NCBI GenBank assembly: GCA_017652965.1
Contig: JAGBZZ010000210.1
Span: 1-6,082, forward strand
Direction: 5' to 3'
DNA from: Clostridia bacterium
GTDB taxonomy: Bacteria > Bacillota_A > Clostridia > Oscillospirales > CAG-272
DNA: 6,082 nt
Positions 278 to 6,082 of this stretch are shown in pieces. How positions within the stretch are numbered: position 1 is the first letter of the stretch; the number at the start of each line of letters is the position of its first letter. The notes beneath the pieces were generated by a model. It was not told where the DNA came from, did not search any database, and worked only from the letters and a program-made list of their open reading frames with translations. Both the position numbers and the translations under genes were made by a program.

Positions 278-1132
278 TTAGTAAAGGCGCAGCTTTTTGG
301 CGACGGTTTCGCCGTCCACCTCAATGATGCTGAGGGTGCCGTTGTAGATCGCCTGCACGGTGTGGCCACCTACGACCGCCTCCAGCACGTGGGGCTTCTC
401 TATGATCCCCTCGATCTCATCGTAGACGTGGCCGTTTATGACCAGCTCGTTCGTATGCTTGACCCTGCGATAGCAGATGGTAAGGCTCGGCACCTCTGCC
501 GCAAGAAGCACACGGTGCTTGACCTCGGTATCGGCGGGGCGCAGGCTTTCGGAGCTTTCCCTCTCCGTCTTGTCGCCCGCTTCGTCCTCGGTGAGGGCGG
601 CTTCCTCTTCCTTCTCCTCTTCTTCCGGGAGGGTCTTCAGCTTTTTATGGGCAAGGATACCGGCTATCAGGGTGTAGATCAGCCAGGCATGGCAGAAGAT
701 CTCGAGGGCCGAGGCCAGCGAGATGCCGTCCATCACGATGAGAAACAGCGTGTCAACGCAGAAGAAGACCAGCGCGGCAATCAGCCAACCGGCGCGCCCC
801 TTGCCCGAGAGAAGCCACAGCACAAGGTACCCAAGGGTCAGAAGGACCGCAATGATCAGTGTGGCTACGAAAAACGGGGTATCGAACAGAGGCGTGATCT
901 CAAACTTATCGTAATATTCGGCAGGCAGACGGCCGCTGAACAGCACGCCAAAGAAGGCAACGTAATAGGGGATCGAGGCGGAAAAGAGGACATAGCTGTC
1001 CGTGTTGGTGACAAGCAGAAGGATGTTGACAAGGGTCAGTACGATGATAATGAGAAGGTCTGCTCTTGCCAGGTTGTATTTCTGCAGAAGCCGCTCACGC
1101 GGGGACAGGTTTTTGCTGTAGTTTTTAGGCAT
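278..1132 (-). CDS. Five-helix integral membrane protein with cytoplasmic-type beta-rich C-terminal domain, function unknown
   Basis: The gene encodes 284 residues. After a basic N-terminus (residues 1-22) come five hydrophobic segments at about 24-42, 46-68, 86-109, 114-135 and 140-161. A very acidic, low-complexity linker follows (about 169-200, with runs of Glu). The C-terminal domain (about 204-284) has alternating strand-like segments, including NELVINGHVYDE and a final LSIIEVDGETVAKKL. The ATG is supported by AAGGAG at 1141-1146, eight bases upstream, and by a consensus promoter. The TAA stop is followed by a strong terminator, so it is probably a single-gene unit. The architecture resembles uncharacterised membrane proteins seen in Clostridia; no catalytic motif is visible. 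The long antisense reading frame over this gene is a shadow, because only the minus frame gives membrane segments, RBS and promoter. Confidence 0.88.
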   Translation of the reverse strand: MPKNYSKNLSPRERLLQKYNLARADLLIIIVLTLVNILLLVTNTDSYVLFSASIPYYVAFFGVLFSGRLPAEYYDKFEITPLFDTPFFVATLIIAVLLTLGYLVLWLLSGKGRAGWLIAALVFFCVDTLFLIVMDGISLASALEIFCHAWLIYTLIAGILAHKKLKTLPEEEEKEEEAALTEDEAGDKTERESSESLRPADTEVKHRVLLAAEVPSLTICYRRVKHTNELVINGHVYDEIEGIIEKPHVLEAVVGGHTVQAIYNGTLSIIEVDGETVAKKLRLY

Positions 1133-1140
1133 GGGTCATT

Positions 1141-1146
1141 CTCCTT
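1141..1146 (-). promoter_or_regulatory. Ribosome binding site of the five-helix membrane protein
   Basis: AAGGAG on the minus strand, eight bases before the ATG at 1130-1132. It fixes the start codon. Confidence 0.85.
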
Positions 1147-1157
1147 GTAAGTAGTTT

Positions 1158-1388
1158 TTATTCACACGGTATAGGATAACACAAAAAAGAGGGACTGTCA
1201 AGGGCTTGCGTGCCAAAGCGGATGGCGTAAAGGTCGGCATCCATCAGCCGCACCGAAAGGGTGACGGGCTTGCCCGCAAGGCGGGAGACGCCCGCATCGT
1301 CGGGAAAGTGAATGCGCTTGTCGGCCGAATTGCCAAAGCACTCGTACGAGGTGTATTCCTCGCCCTCACACGTGAGGGTAAAATAGGC
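1158..1388 (-). pseudogene. In-frame C-terminal continuation of the beta-propeller gene beyond its TAA stop
   Basis: Directly after the TAA at 1389-1391 the same frame stays open for 76 codons to a second TAA at 1158-1160. The translation starts AYFTLTCEGEEYTSYECFGN. It contains SRLAGKPVTLSVRLMDADLY followed by AIRFG. This closely resembles the usual final strands of GH32/GH43-like propeller proteins, where a 'GKPVRLRF.L.DADLYSFRF' type ending is typical (recalled family knowledge). The segment therefore looks like the displaced end of the gene's own product rather than chance. Where the ancestral stop lay is unclear: the family-like part ends near 1210, and the last ~15 codons overlap the next gene's promoter. 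It could reflect a nonsense mutation, a base-call error or stop-codon readthrough. Confidence 0.75.
1173..1201 (-). promoter_or_regulatory. Sigma-A/sigma-70-type promoter for the five-helix membrane protein
   Basis: On the minus strand there is a perfect -35 box TTGACA (1196-1201), a 17-base spacer and a -10 box TATCCT (1173-1178). Transcription should begin near 1166, about 34 bases before the start codon. The boxes fall inside the in-frame C-terminal continuation of the upstream propeller gene (after its TAA at 1389-1391). No terminator is visible between that gene and this promoter, so readthrough from the operon upstream is also possible. Confidence 0.75.
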
Positions 1389-2720
1389 TTACCCCTTGGC
1401 CGAGGTCTCAAGGTTTGCGTACAGGGCGCTCCCCTCGTAGGTAAAGGGCTTGGTGACAAGGCGCTCCTCCCTTTCCCCCGCATGGCGGGAGACAAAGCCG
1501 TCAAGGCGGAGGCTGTACCGCACGATCAGGGCGTAGCCCGTGGCGGCGCGGTAATTTTCCATGACGTAGATCGAGTATTCGTTGTCTGCCCCCGGGATGT
1601 CCGAGGGGGTCTCGACCAGCCCCGCCGCCGTATAGCAATCGCCGTACATCCAGGAGTAGGGATGCTCAACGGGCGGCCGCAGGAAGGCCTCGTCATAGCG
1701 CAAAAAGTCGTACCCGTTTCGTGAACACATGAAAAGCCCGTCGGTCACCACAAGCCCGGCACGGGCATAGCCGCGCAGGATGCGCTCCATCCGTGCCTCT
1801 CTGCCGCACAGCTCGTCATAGGTCGGCGTCCAGGCCTTTCTCTCGTGATACCGCACGGGAAAGCCGATAAAGAGGTGGGGCGCACGGGGGTAGGGGGAGA
1901 CGGCGTTGGTATACAGCTGTACCCTGTCGTCCTTCAGACCGATCGGTCGGCTTTCGGTCCAGGTGATGAAATCCTTTGACTCCATGACCCGCACGTCACG
2001 CATCATCTTGCTGTCCTCATCCTCGGGGGAGGGCAGACGGGTGGACATGGTGTCCCCGTCCCACAGGCGGTTGGCGGTATCCTGCTTGAAGGAATATTCC
2101 TCAAAGCTTGCTTCGCCGTTCGGATGATGCTCAAAGCGGTAGTAGCAGAAGTACTTCCCATGCTCGTGGCTGTAAAAGGCGAGATTTTGCGAGTCGAACG
2201 CGCCAAAGGTCGTCATCACCCCAAGATAGGAGAAGTGGATGCCGTCCGGGCTGACAAGCGAAATAAGGCTCTCGTCTCCCGCCGTGGACATCACGGCCTT
2301 GTAGCGCTCTTCCTTCGGGCAGGCGGGGTTCTCATCATAAAAAACGTAGCAGTCGTTCAGGTGCTTTGCTCCAAAGCTGCGCGCCAGCGGCATATCTATG
2401 ACAACGTTGTTATCGTACGAGCCACCCACCGAGACAGCCCCCAGCGAGGGGCGGGTCCAATGGATGCCGTCTAGGCTTTCGGCGCGGCTGATGGTAAAGG
2501 GGCCGGCAAAGGAGGGGGCACTGCGGTAATAGAGAAGCCACCTGCCCTCGGCAAAAAAGACGTTGGGATACCCGCATACCCCGCCCTCCCACGGCATATT
2601 CAGCGAAAGCGCGATCTCGCGCCGTGTCGGACGGTGCAGAAGGCGGGGTGCGGTGCTTGCCTCCTCATTGACAAGAAAGCTGTCAAAAAACACCTCTCGG
2701 CGATCTCCTAATGCGATCAT
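1389..2720 (-). CDS. Five-bladed beta-propeller protein of the GH32/GH43 glycoside hydrolase-like type, C-terminally truncated by TAA
   Basis: The gene encodes 443 residues with no signal peptide, so a cytoplasmic protein is expected. Blade-like motifs recur: SLDGIHWTRP (82-91), SPDGIHF (157-163), SKDFITWTE (248-256) and SRNGYDFLRYDEAFLRP (333-349). The stretch LYTNAVSPYPRAPHLFIGFP (269-288) and the opening DRREVFFDSFLV match the pattern I know for uncharacterised sugar-hydrolase-like proteins of the five-bladed propeller superfamily. RYSLRLDGFVS (401-411) leads into a beta-sandwich tail. Substrate cannot be inferred, and I cannot assign catalytic acids with certainty. The start is fixed by AAGGAGG at 2729-2735, eight bases upstream. 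It is the third gene of the YgjV/C39/propeller operon, 20 bases after the C39-like gene. The tail is cut at about residue 443 while the frame continues after the TAA, so the annotated protein lacks its last strands and may be non-functional. Confidence 0.85.
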   Translation of the reverse strand: MIALGDRREVFFDSFLVNEEASTAPRLLHRPTRREIALSLNMPWEGGVCGYPNVFFAEGRWLLYYRSAPSFAGPFTISRAESLDGIHWTRPSLGAVSVGGSYDNNVVIDMPLARSFGAKHLNDCYVFYDENPACPKEERYKAVMSTAGDESLISLVSPDGIHFSYLGVMTTFGAFDSQNLAFYSHEHGKYFCYYRFEHHPNGEASFEEYSFKQDTANRLWDGDTMSTRLPSPEDEDSKMMRDVRVMESKDFITWTESRPIGLKDDRVQLYTNAVSPYPRAPHLFIGFPVRYHERKAWTPTYDELCGREARMERILRGYARAGLVVTDGLFMCSRNGYDFLRYDEAFLRPPVEHPYSWMYGDCYTAAGLVETPSDIPGADNEYSIYVMENYRAATGYALIVRYSLRLDGFVSRHAGEREERLVTKPFTYEGSALYANLETSAKG

Positions 2721-2740: not shown

Positions 2741-3328
2741 TTACAGCGAAAAAAGATGGTATTTCACACGTCCCTCGCCGCGCGTTTCGGCGTGGAAAAG
2801 GTCAACGTCACAGAAGAGAAAGGGCGCCTTCGCCGTATCGACCTTGCCTGCCCGCTCCGGGATCTCAAACTTTTCGGGGGTGTAGCTGGGGTCAAGCACG
2901 CAAAAGCGCTCCCCGTCGGTGGCGTACAGCACCACGTAGTGCCCGCCCTTGGTGAAAAGCCCGATGCGCTTGCCCTCCGGCACGCCCATATGGGCAATGA
3001 CCTTACCGCCCCTTTGCAGGTGTGCCACCGCTATGGCAGGGTCATCGGTCTTTTCGTAGGTCAGGCCGTACCTTTCGGCAATGGCGGGGGCAAGCACCAG
3101 CATATCGGTGCCAACCGACCAGTTAGAGCCGCACTCGTAGGCGATGGCCACGCACCCCTCCACCGTCAGCTCACGGTCGGTGAGCAGATCCACGATCATG
3201 CAGGCCGCGCAAAGCCCGCACCCCGAAAGCGCGACCGTGCGGTGCCTTTGCTCGTGTGTGGCGTTTGGGTTTTTGACCTCGGCAAGATAGGGGACGTGGG
3301 CGTAGTCAAGCTGATTGATGTAACGCAT
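2741..3328 (-). CDS. C39-like (papain-fold) cysteine peptidase-family protein
   Basis: The gene encodes 195 residues. VPYLAEV (12-18) followed by SGCGLCAACMIVDLL (35-49) matches the 'Q..Y...GCGP.s.aMv' signature of C39-like papain-fold proteins, making Cys37 the likely nucleophile. GGHYVVLYATDG (128-139) with His130 and VLDPSY (144-149) with Asp146 give the expected His and Asp of the triad. The glutamine normally expected for the oxyanion hole is less clear (Gln6 is a candidate). There is no signal peptide, transmembrane segment or ABC domain, so it is not a typical bacteriocin-exporter C39 protease. A free-standing cytoplasmic peptidase, transglutaminase-like enzyme or inactive relative are all possible. 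The start codon is three bases past the upstream YgjV-like stop, and its GGAGGT (3336-3341) overlaps that gene's last codons, so translation is probably coupled. Confidence 0.8.
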   Translation of the reverse strand: MRYINQLDYAHVPYLAEVKNPNATHEQRHRTVALSGCGLCAACMIVDLLTDRELTVEGCVAIAYECGSNWSVGTDMLVLAPAIAERYGLTYEKTDDPAIAVAHLQRGGKVIAHMGVPEGKRIGLFTKGGHYVVLYATDGERFCVLDPSYTPEKFEIPERAGKVDTAKAPFLFCDVDLFHAETRGEGRVKYHLFSL

Positions 3329-3331
3329 GTC

Positions 3332-3883
3332 TTATACCTCCGTGGTGGTGGGCGGGGCGGCCTTTTGCTTTTCGGCTTTTTCGGCTACGGAATAGCGGAT
3401 CATGGCGCTGATCAGCGACAGAAGCGCCAAAAAGCTGCCGATGGCCGCGCCGTAAGCCCCTGCCGCCAGATTGTAGATCAGCCAGCACGGCACGGCGGGC
3501 AGTGAAACCAGGCGGATGGTCTTCTCCTTTTTCATCCAGTTGGAGGCGCTTTCAAATAAGACGCCCGCCACCGCCAAAAGGCTTATAGGGCTTGTATACA
3601 GCAAGATCCCCACCGTTACGATGGCGGCGTTTGTCAGGATCAGAATGGGGATCTTATGGCGCTTGACAAACGCGGTATCCCGCCGATAGGCGATATAGGA
3701 GGTCACCAGCGCCGCGGCATCCATGGCCGCCCCCACAAAGGCAAACAGCAAAAGATACTGCAGGACGTAAAAAAGGCTGGAAAGCACCCGGCACGCAATG
3801 ATGCTTTTGGCGTGCTTCAGCTGAAAGCAAAGGAGGTACAGCACTACCCCCAAAATTCCGAAGATAAGAGAAAGTATTTTCAT
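3332..3883 (-). CDS. YgjV-like inner membrane protein
   Basis: The gene encodes 183 residues, almost entirely hydrophobic up to residue 165. Membrane segments lie at about 4-20, 33-51, 53-66, 79-96, 99-112, 126-142 and 145-164, and a short polar tail (166-183) ends in TTTEV. The early QLKHAKSIIACRVLSSLFYV (21-40) and the following small-residue helix match the repeated 'Q...k.i...l...l...hf.llG' pattern of the YgjV family (bacterial inner membrane protein, function unknown). The ATG at 3881-3883 is the only in-frame start. Its ribosome site is poor (GGTAG at best), which is unusual beside the strong sites of the next two genes. It leads the operon, behind a good promoter and a leader hairpin. 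The family call is from memory and moderately sure; the membrane nature is certain. Confidence 0.82.
   Translation of the reverse strand: MKILSLIFGILGVVLYLLCFQLKHAKSIIACRVLSSLFYVLQYLLLFAFVGAAMDAAALVTSYIAYRRDTAFVKRHKIPILILTNAAIVTVGILLYTSPISLLAVAGVLFESASNWMKKEKTIRLVSLPAVPCWLIYNLAAGAYGAAIGSFLALLSLISAMIRYSVAEKAEKQKAAPPTTTEV
3336..3341 (-). promoter_or_regulatory. Ribosome binding site of the C39-like gene, embedded in the end of the YgjV-like gene
   Basis: GGAGGT on the minus strand overlaps the final codons of the YgjV-like gene and lies seven bases before the ATG at 3326-3328. This arrangement is typical of translational coupling. Confidence 0.75.
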
Positions 3884-3984: not shown

Positions 3985-4019
3985 TTCTAAAGAAGAGCCT
4001 CCCTTTAGAAAAGGGAGGC
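3985..4019. repeat. Perfect 10-bp hairpin with an overlapping alternative stem; possible dispersed repeat remnant or terminator
   Basis: GCCTCCCTTT (3997-4006) pairs with AAAGGGAGGC (4010-4019) around a 3-base loop. A second, mutually exclusive stem pairs TTCTAAAG (3985-3992) with CTTTAGAA (4003-4010). On the minus strand the strong hairpin is followed only by TCTTCTTT, a weak terminator tail. From memory, 'GCCTCCCTTT..AAAGGGAGG' hairpins are the core of an abundant intergenic repeat in some gut Oscillospiraceae, so this may be a truncated copy. It also marks the point where the duplicated fragment next door loses its homology. Confidence 0.55.
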
Positions 4020-4172
4020 AGACAGCTTGAAAAACTTCTTGGGGTAGATATAGCGGATGTCCGGGTGACCTTGCAGGGAGATCACGTAGAACTCGTTCCC
4101 CTCGACAGAGGTTTGCCAAAGCCCGGTCGAGCTGAGGCAGTATTCCCGGCTCCAGGCATAGTGCTTACGAAG
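4005..4172 (-). pseudogene. Decayed partial second copy of the two-helix membrane protein's C-terminal domain
   Basis: The minus frame reads LRKHYAWSREY, then STGLWQT, GNEFY, LQGHPDIRYIYPKKFF and KLSA. It aligns without gaps to residues 144-197 of the neighbouring gene, with 38 of 54 residues identical by my count. The nucleotide copies are 184 bases apart. The N-terminal ~143 residues and both membrane helices are missing, there is no ATG or ribosome site, and the frame is open upstream only to about 4196. The end runs straight into the hairpin at 3997-4019, which supplies the last residues before TAA at 4005-4007. Substitutions are largely conservative (Y/F, V/I, T/S), which suggests the copy was under selection for some time before truncation, or comes from a once-complete paralogue. 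Confidence 0.8.
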
Positions 4173-4356
4173 CGCCGTCCTGTGCGCTGCCCGCAAGCTC
4201 TGCGCTCAGGGTGAAAAACTTCAAGGGATAGATGTAAGCGATATCGGGGTGGCCCTGCAGGGTCACGCGGTAATATTCATTCCCGCTGACGGCGGTCTGC
4301 CAAAGCCCTGTGGTGCCGAGAGAAAGCTCGCGGCTCCAGGTGTAATGCTTCTCAAG
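4028..4356. repeat. Imperfect direct repeat, 184-base offset
   Basis: Bases 4028-4172 and 4212-4356 align without gaps at a constant offset of 184 bases, for example TGAAAAACTT near 4028 and 4212. They encode the same domain end in two reading frames, because 184 is not a multiple of three. Confidence 0.75.
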
Positions 4357-4785
4357 GCGCGGCACGCGCCAGCGCCCGCCCGCTTGGAAGTAAAAAAACA
4401 GGACCTCGCGCATGCTGCGATTCCTCCCGCGGCTGACGTGCGGCTCATAGACGACCTCGGTCGCGGTGTGGCTGAGGATCTCCCGGGTGACTGCGAAATC
4501 CCTGCGCTCGATCGCCGCCTCGATCATCGCCGTCTCCCGCTTCTGCTCCCGTGACTCGAAAAAAAGGCGGACGGCGTGATAGACAGCGCCCGAAAGGACG
4601 AGAAGCACGCCGAGTGGCCAAAGGCCGATGCGGAGTGCCCAAAGCACAAGGCCGACGAGTGCCGCTACGATCGTGAAGCTGAAGATCGCACTCCAGCGCC
4701 ACTCGAGAAGTGTCCCGAGGCGAATGCGGGAGGCGCGGATCAGGTCATTTCGGACGGCGGCAAGGGTGATCTTTTCCTTTTGCAT
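4165..4785 (-). CDS. Two-helix membrane protein with uncharacterised C-terminal domain
   Basis: The gene encodes 206 residues. A basic, amphipathic N-terminus (1-30) precedes two membrane segments at about 32-50 and 53-71. A charged helical stretch follows (77-105, SREQKRETAMIEAAIERRDF). The C-terminal domain (about 108-195) carries GRWRVPRLEKHYTWSRE, TTGLWQTAVSGNEYY and LQGHPDIAYIYPLKFFTL, a beta-rich pattern I associate with uncharacterised Clostridia proteins. No catalytic motif is visible. The ATG at 4783-4785 has AAAAAGGA at 4793-4800 upstream. The last ten residues (AGSAQDGAS and its lead-in) are read across the junction with the duplicated copy. They probably do not belong to the ancestral protein. 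It lies 36 bases after the DUF4234-type gene and is probably co-transcribed with it. Confidence 0.82.
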   Translation of the reverse strand: MQKEKITLAAVRNDLIRASRIRLGTLLEWRWSAIFSFTIVAALVGLVLWALRIGLWPLGVLLVLSGAVYHAVRLFFESREQKRETAMIEAAIERRDFAVTREILSHTATEVVYEPHVSRGRNRSMREVLFFYFQAGGRWRVPRLEKHYTWSRELSLGTTGLWQTAVSGNEYYRVTLQGHPDIAYIYPLKFFTLSAELAGSAQDGAS

Positions 4786-5378: not shown

Positions 5379-6082
5379 TTATTCCGCGGGGGTCTCGGCA
5401 GGGGTCGCCTCGGCGGTCTCGGTCACCTCGGTCACCTCGGCAGCTTCGGTGATGGCGGGGGCGGCACTCTCGGCCTCCTCACGCTTGCCAAGCACGGTGG
5501 GCAGAGACATCCCCGCCAGCGAGAAGACCTCGCCGAGCGGCGGTACGCTCTTCATCATCCCGGAGAGGAAGTCGGCCGTGGCGGTCTTGCCGTTGGCGCC
5601 CGAGCCGTTGTCCCAGACCGTGACCTTGTCGATCTTGATGTTGGAGATGGCGTCGACCTGGATCTTCATCAGCTCCTCGAGCTTGTCGGCGATCATCATA
5701 CGCATGGCCTCATCGGCACCGCCGCCGGCGGCACGGACAAGGTCCTCAAAGCCCGCGGCCTGCTTGGTCAGCATTTCGCGCATACCGTTTGCCTCGGCCT
5801 GCATCTTGGCGAAGATAGCGTCGGCTTCACCCTTGGCCTTACGGCGGATCTGCTCGGCCTCGGCCTCGGCCTCCAGCTCCAGTCGGCGCTTTTCGATCTC
5901 GGCGGCCACGATGATGTTGGCCTCGAGGGTCGCCTTTTCCTTTTCCTTACGCGCCTCCTCGGCGGCCTTCTGTGCGGCGTAGGCCTCCTCGAGCGCCTTA
6001 GCCTCCTGGATCTTCTCAGCGGCGATCGCGATCTTCTGTGCCTCGGCCTCGCGCTCACGGAGCTGGGCGTTCGACATTGCGA
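5379..6082 (-). CDS. Flotillin-like (SPFH) protein, C-terminal half (partial, N-terminus outside window)
   Basis: The frame is open through the window edge: GCA precedes the first visible Met codon at 6075-6077, so that Met is internal and the real start lies further right. About 234 residues are visible; numbering from that Met, residues 1-100 form a long Ala/Glu/Lys-rich coiled coil with EAEAEAE and RRKAKGEADAIFAKMQAEA, the hallmark of flotillins. It continues with LVRAAGGGADEAMRMMIADK (113-132), NIKIDKVTVWDNGSG (146-160) and PPLGEVFSLAGMSLPTVLG (179-197), matching the conserved flotillin C-terminus. Flotillins are membrane scaffold proteins of functional microdomains; the SPFH domain and membrane anchor would be in the missing ~250 residues. 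The tail after 198 is a low-complexity Thr/Glu/Ala/Val stretch with VTE repeats, which looks lineage-specific. Confidence 0.92.
   Translation of the reverse strand, partial: AMSNAQLREREAEAQKIAIAAEKIQEAKALEEAYAAQKAAEEARKEKEKATLEANIIVAAEIEKRRLELEAEAEAEQIRRKAKGEADAIFAKMQAEANGMREMLTKQAAGFEDLVRAAGGGADEAMRMMIADKLEELMKIQVDAISNIKIDKVTVWDNGSGANGKTATADFLSGMMKSVPPLGEVFSLAGMSLPTVLGKREEAESAAPAITEAAEVTEVTETAEATPAETPAE

Follow-up and report, generated by a model that had tools for sequence, protein, structure and literature searches.

An in-frame TAA interrupts a gene on the minus strand

The window (the whole stretch of DNA analysed, 6,082 nucleotides) carries on its minus strand an open reading frame from 2720 to 1389, comprising 443 codons followed by TAA at 1389-1391. 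Its start codon is ATG, preceded by a Shine-Dalgarno-like AGGAGG. Past the TAA this frame stays open for another 76 sense codons, until a second TAA at 1158-1160, and within this continuation lies GKPVTLSVRLMDADLYAIRF, which matches the C-terminus of the homologous protein family. A sequence-only reading had described this frame, its interruption and the resemblance of GKPVTLSVRLMDADLYAIRF to the family C-terminus; all were borne out by reading the frame and by alignment with homologues. In the sequence as given, the in-frame stop is present and is abnormal for the family. The features discussed below are:

2741-3328, minus strand: upstream neighbour, 195 residues, open, weakly C39-peptidase-like, ending in TAA; it has a 99% relative of equal length (P0121)
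1389-2720, minus strand: truncated gene encoding a propeller-like part and the start of a C-terminal beta-domain, as judged from the reading frame, homologues, a structure model of the closest relative (P0001) and structural matches
1389-1391, minus strand: premature TAA at codon 444; all 120 aligned homologues have a residue at this column, Tyr in the 99% relative
1209-1388, minus strand: family C-terminal part behind the stop, codons 445-504, supported by alignment and coding composition (GC3 0.77)
1206-1208, minus strand: codon 505, a sense codon where P0001 has already ended; by this comparison, an apparently lost normal stop
1158-1205, minus strand: probable chance open frame, codons 506-520 and the next in-frame TAA; GC3 is low and none of the 120 homologues reaches as far
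1173-1201, minus strand: promoter-like site TTGACA-17-TATCCT (10 of 12 matches), facing the next gene (278-1132, minus strand)
278-1132, minus strand: downstream neighbour, 284 residues, open, N-terminal half hydrophobic by eye, ending in TAA at 278-280

The C39-peptidase likeness of the upstream neighbour lies below the cut-off (Pfam, E 0.01). This gene begins 3 bases behind the gene at 3332-3883 (Imp-YgjV domain, E 4.7e-24), and a separation of only 3 bases suggests that the two form an operon.

Homologues continue through the position of the stop

The frame was read through, with X at the stop, and used as the query of a homologue search (E up to 0.001; 7998 candidates scored). The search returned 1977 protein matches, of which the best 120 were aligned. 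These are 483-518 residues long and all of them continue through the stop column, where they carry Tyr (41), Ser (28), Gly (21), His (19), Phe (5), Cys (2), Ala (2), Trp (1) or Pro (1). The closest of them, P0001, is 99% identical, 504 residues long and intact, with Tyr at the stop column. Because the best 120 homologues read through this column at lengths of 483-518 residues, and P0001 is intact, residue 443 is no normal end. The sequence-only reading had proposed aligning the product and its continuation with homologues, and had named proteins that normally end near residue 443 as grounds against an interruption; none of the best 120 of the 1977 ends there. The window gene therefore has a premature in-frame stop relative to its orthologues, as a nonsense pseudogene does, with 120 of 120 homologues passing the column.

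The family to which these proteins belong (P0001-P0120, about 500 residues) is unnamed. Its best eight members are 75-99% identical to the window gene, and one member (P0008) comes from a Ruminococcaceae/Oscillospiraceae MAG. The window gene shares the register of the family through the stop and up to codon 504; it differs in that all 120 members are open at the stop column and none reaches the second TAA of the window.

The normal stop also appears to be lost

P0001 ends after codon 504, whereas codon 505 of the window is a sense codon. Beyond the stop column the 120 homologues have 58-65 residues, compared with 76 in the window frame. The coding signal persists behind the premature stop and fades where the relative ends: GC3 is 0.76 in codons 1-443, 0.77 in codons 445-504 and 0.31 in codons 505-520, against 0.72-0.86 in the other six genes of the window. 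The promoter-like site also falls past codon 504, and two such sites were found when both strands of window positions 1000-1500 were scanned, compared with a mean of 0.2 in shuffled sequences. The drop in GC3, the end of P0001 and the promoter-like site together indicate that the normal stop at codon 505 has probably been lost, judging from protein ends, and that the last 16 codons (505-520) are intergenic, with non-coding composition.

This changes the description of the locus in two respects. The earlier reading counted 76 family-like codons after the stop; the first 60 do align with homologues, while codons 505-520 (1161-1208) are not family-like. It also held that only one base triplet blocks a protein of about 520 residues. 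That statement does not hold, as the nearest relative has 504 residues and the normal stop is missing too: 16 intergenic codons had been taken for protein and the second lesion overlooked. With the normal stop apparently lost in addition to the premature TAA, this copy would carry two lesions, not one.

The premature stop cuts into a predicted C-terminal beta-domain

The structure model of P0001 consists of a propeller followed by a C-terminal beta-domain whose last strands are predicted with confidence (pLDDT 94-98). The model shows the five-bladed propeller fold of GH130, GH43 and GH32 enzymes. The enzymes of this fold that it matched are of the GH130 type (beta-1,2-mannobiose phosphorylase, 7fip/7fir; Teth514_1788, 9fj8/9gph), GH43 and GH32, at 6-18% identity to the window family, in which the C-terminal beta-domain comes after the propeller. 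The encoded protein has a predicted propeller fold and is probably carbohydrate-active.

Profile searches gave no firm assignment. Neither the window protein nor P0001 had a Pfam match at E up to 1, and NCBIfam offered no assignment for the family. When 50 relatives were compared with Pfam, the best E-values were 0.012 for GH43 (5 of the 50) and 0.053 for GH32 (3 of the 50), and no GH130 profile was among the 14 families listed for them; no GH130, GH43 or GH32 profile scored above its curated cut-off. A family of about 500 residues with 1977 matches overall, common in the bacterial family (82 of 395 same-family genomes) and matched by neither Pfam nor NCBIfam, merits annotation.

The premature stop falls within strand 432-451 of the predicted C-terminal beta-domain. 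About 60 residues are lost with it, among them 10 positions that are invariant in 50 aligned relatives (50 of the 120). Because the cut inside this strand takes these invariant positions away, the 443-residue product is probably inactive. An alternative is that the short protein is still functional and its C-terminal beta-domain dispensable. The structural matches are compatible with this, since they span mainly model residues 27-412, ahead of the cut. However, a stop within strand 432-451 would leave a partial beta-domain without the invariant positions, and none of the best 120 of 1977 homologues ends there, even though proteins down to 0.55 x query length were admitted to the search (the ranking favours full-length ones). 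A functional short protein is therefore improbable.

TAA acts as a stop codon in the window

All seven genes taken as such in the window end in TAA, and the six other than the interrupted one are long open frames in the ORF list. None of the 120 listed homologues of the 278-1132 gene extends past its end. The 195-residue upstream gene ends together with P0121, and among its 120 listed homologues 119 continue for 0-7 residues and one for 12. A homologue of the interrupted gene at a related locus (L001, a 75% relative) ends in TAA as well. Judged from this stretch of DNA, TAA serves as a stop: the window genes end in this codon, the ends of the two neighbours checked fit those of their homologues, and reassignment of TAA to an amino acid was not encountered there. 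The statement of the sequence-only reading that TAA is a true stop, for which it cited the end at 278, thus stands within the window.

These observations bear on the idea that a full-length protein arises by programmed readthrough or through reassignment of TAA. The frame after the stop does stay in the family register. However, TAA ends every window gene with a visible end; none of the 120 listed relatives has a stop at the site, and there is hence no conserved stop of the kind that programmed readthrough would leave. Nor does the RNA around the stop stand out in its structure (z -1.76, with an equally good fold in 12 of 200 shuffles), and with the normal stop also lost, 16 intergenic residues would be added. 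Readthrough is accordingly very unlikely. Less likely still is that the TAA at codon 444 and the missing normal stop are both kept and that UAA suppression yields a certain amount of full-length protein whose C-terminus is altered; were this so, the strength of suppression would set enzyme output.

Two further candidates were set aside. A split gene, with translation restarting after the stop to give a second subunit, is at odds with in-frame start codons occurring only at 490 and 493, near the very end. The stop does sit in a 6-base inverted repeat, and a mutation templated by this palindrome is conceivable, but nothing solid backs it: such repeats recur in the frame (the 521 codons hold 6 perfect ones, 6 bases or longer, with loops of 3-12) and the fold is not unusual.

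Related loci

Scans of related genome contigs and of viral contigs look for short conserved peptides and detect close relatives only. The genome contigs gave one locus, L001 (75% identical), and the viral contigs none. Among the 82 same-family genomes with a match, the best listed outside G001, the genome of L001 itself, is 52% identical, and no internal stop occurs among the matches listed from the 395. When 69 genomes of the genus were searched at the DNA level, 16 gave a match; the longest, 72% over 1210 bases, lies in G001, and the remaining ones either show lower similarity (64% over about 1030 bases) or cover short stretches. Conspecific DNA was found in none of the contig scans, the 395 same-family genomes or the 69 genus genomes. 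At L001 (69-7515) the homologue (5995-7515) follows a run of four similar genes (346, 524, 524 and 527 residues, in that order), putatively glycoside-hydrolase-family-3-like by eye, a setting that differs from that of the window.

Differences from the closest relatives

Apart from the two stop sites, the window gene and P0001 differ at 5 amino acids, 3 of them within the 443 codons ahead of the stop and 2 within the 60 behind it, which is too few to show relaxed selection. The upstream gene differs from P0121 at 2. The polarity of these changes was judged by the next relatives (15 for the window gene, 6 for the upstream gene); that of codon 505 rests on the 120-homologue alignment. Seven of the 9 differences in the two genes look derived in the window (codons 60, 171, 444, 477 and 505, and codons 29 and 58 of the upstream gene); of the remaining 2, codon 371 looks derived in the relative and the polarity of codon 479 was not assigned. 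Codons 60 and 477 are less clear-cut, the window residue being present in 2 and 1 of the 15 relatives, respectively. Thr at codon 171 occurs in none of the 15 next relatives and in 6 of the 120 homologues. Both changes in the upstream gene lie on the window side, at positions that are uniform or almost so among the nearest relatives. The counts are small, and the neighbour's share of window-side changes favours sequence error no less than decay.

Gene decay or sequence error

Of the explanations that the sequence-only reading had listed (a recent nonsense mutation, a sequence error or readthrough), which proved to be the right set, readthrough found no support. We favour, with a probability of roughly 55%, a young pseudogene: a recently disabled copy of a gene whose intact form has about 504 codons, confined to one strain or population of an uncultured bacterium that is Oscillospiraceae-like by the names of its relatives. 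Translation would end at a nonsense change in codon 444, partway along a strand of the C-terminal beta-domain, and the normal stop at codon 505 would then have turned into a sense codon, a change of no consequence once translation ends earlier; both the correctness of the sequence and this order of events are presumed here.

A serious rival, not much worse than the young pseudogene though itself tentative, is a base-call, consensus or assembly error, in which case the gene of the organism is intact at about 504 codons and the contig bases are wrong at both stop sites. The intact 99% relative P0001 fits such an error, as do the window-derived differences, which make up 7 of 9 and include both in the upstream neighbour. 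According to Cooley and Wright, many of the internal-stop pseudogenes seen in bacterial assemblies are assembly artefacts whose occurrence is linked with platform, assembler and coverage, and high coverage is required (PMC11017572). However, error at this locus would require two mistakes, both at stop sites of one gene, while the other six window genes are long open frames and the two compared with homologues end in keeping with them. Two separate lesions in one gene are also more easily explained by loss of constraint than by a single miscall, and with the other genes open, decay is somewhat favoured.

Set beside the bacterial internal-stop pseudogenes, real and spurious, treated in that work (PMC11017572), the window gene is alike in having an in-frame internal stop while its nearest relatives are intact, and differs in that its normal stop also appears to be lost. 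Decay or sequence error, either one is ordinary. If the lesions are real, a single gene, probably for a carbohydrate-active protein, would have been lost within a species; if they are not, a poor consensus would be mimicking gene decay. The locus illustrates cleanly how to read an internal stop in a contig, combining a 99% intact relative, a coding signal that ends with the relatives and a second lesion.

Other observations in the window

About 54 residues from the C-terminal part of the gene at 4165-4785 (minus strand) recur directly behind it in a different frame. The repeat is a 63-codon open reading frame (4005-4196, minus strand) with 38 of 54 residues identical, and the DNA copies (4023-4166 and 4207-4350) are 70% identical. 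The region 4005-4350 thus holds a partial tandem duplicate without the N-terminal part of its parent, perhaps a remnant. The frame at 5379-6077 (minus strand) resembles NCBIfam FloT below the cut-off (E 8.7e-09, profile positions 298-457 of 477) and is probably the C-terminal part of a flotillin-like protein running off the window.
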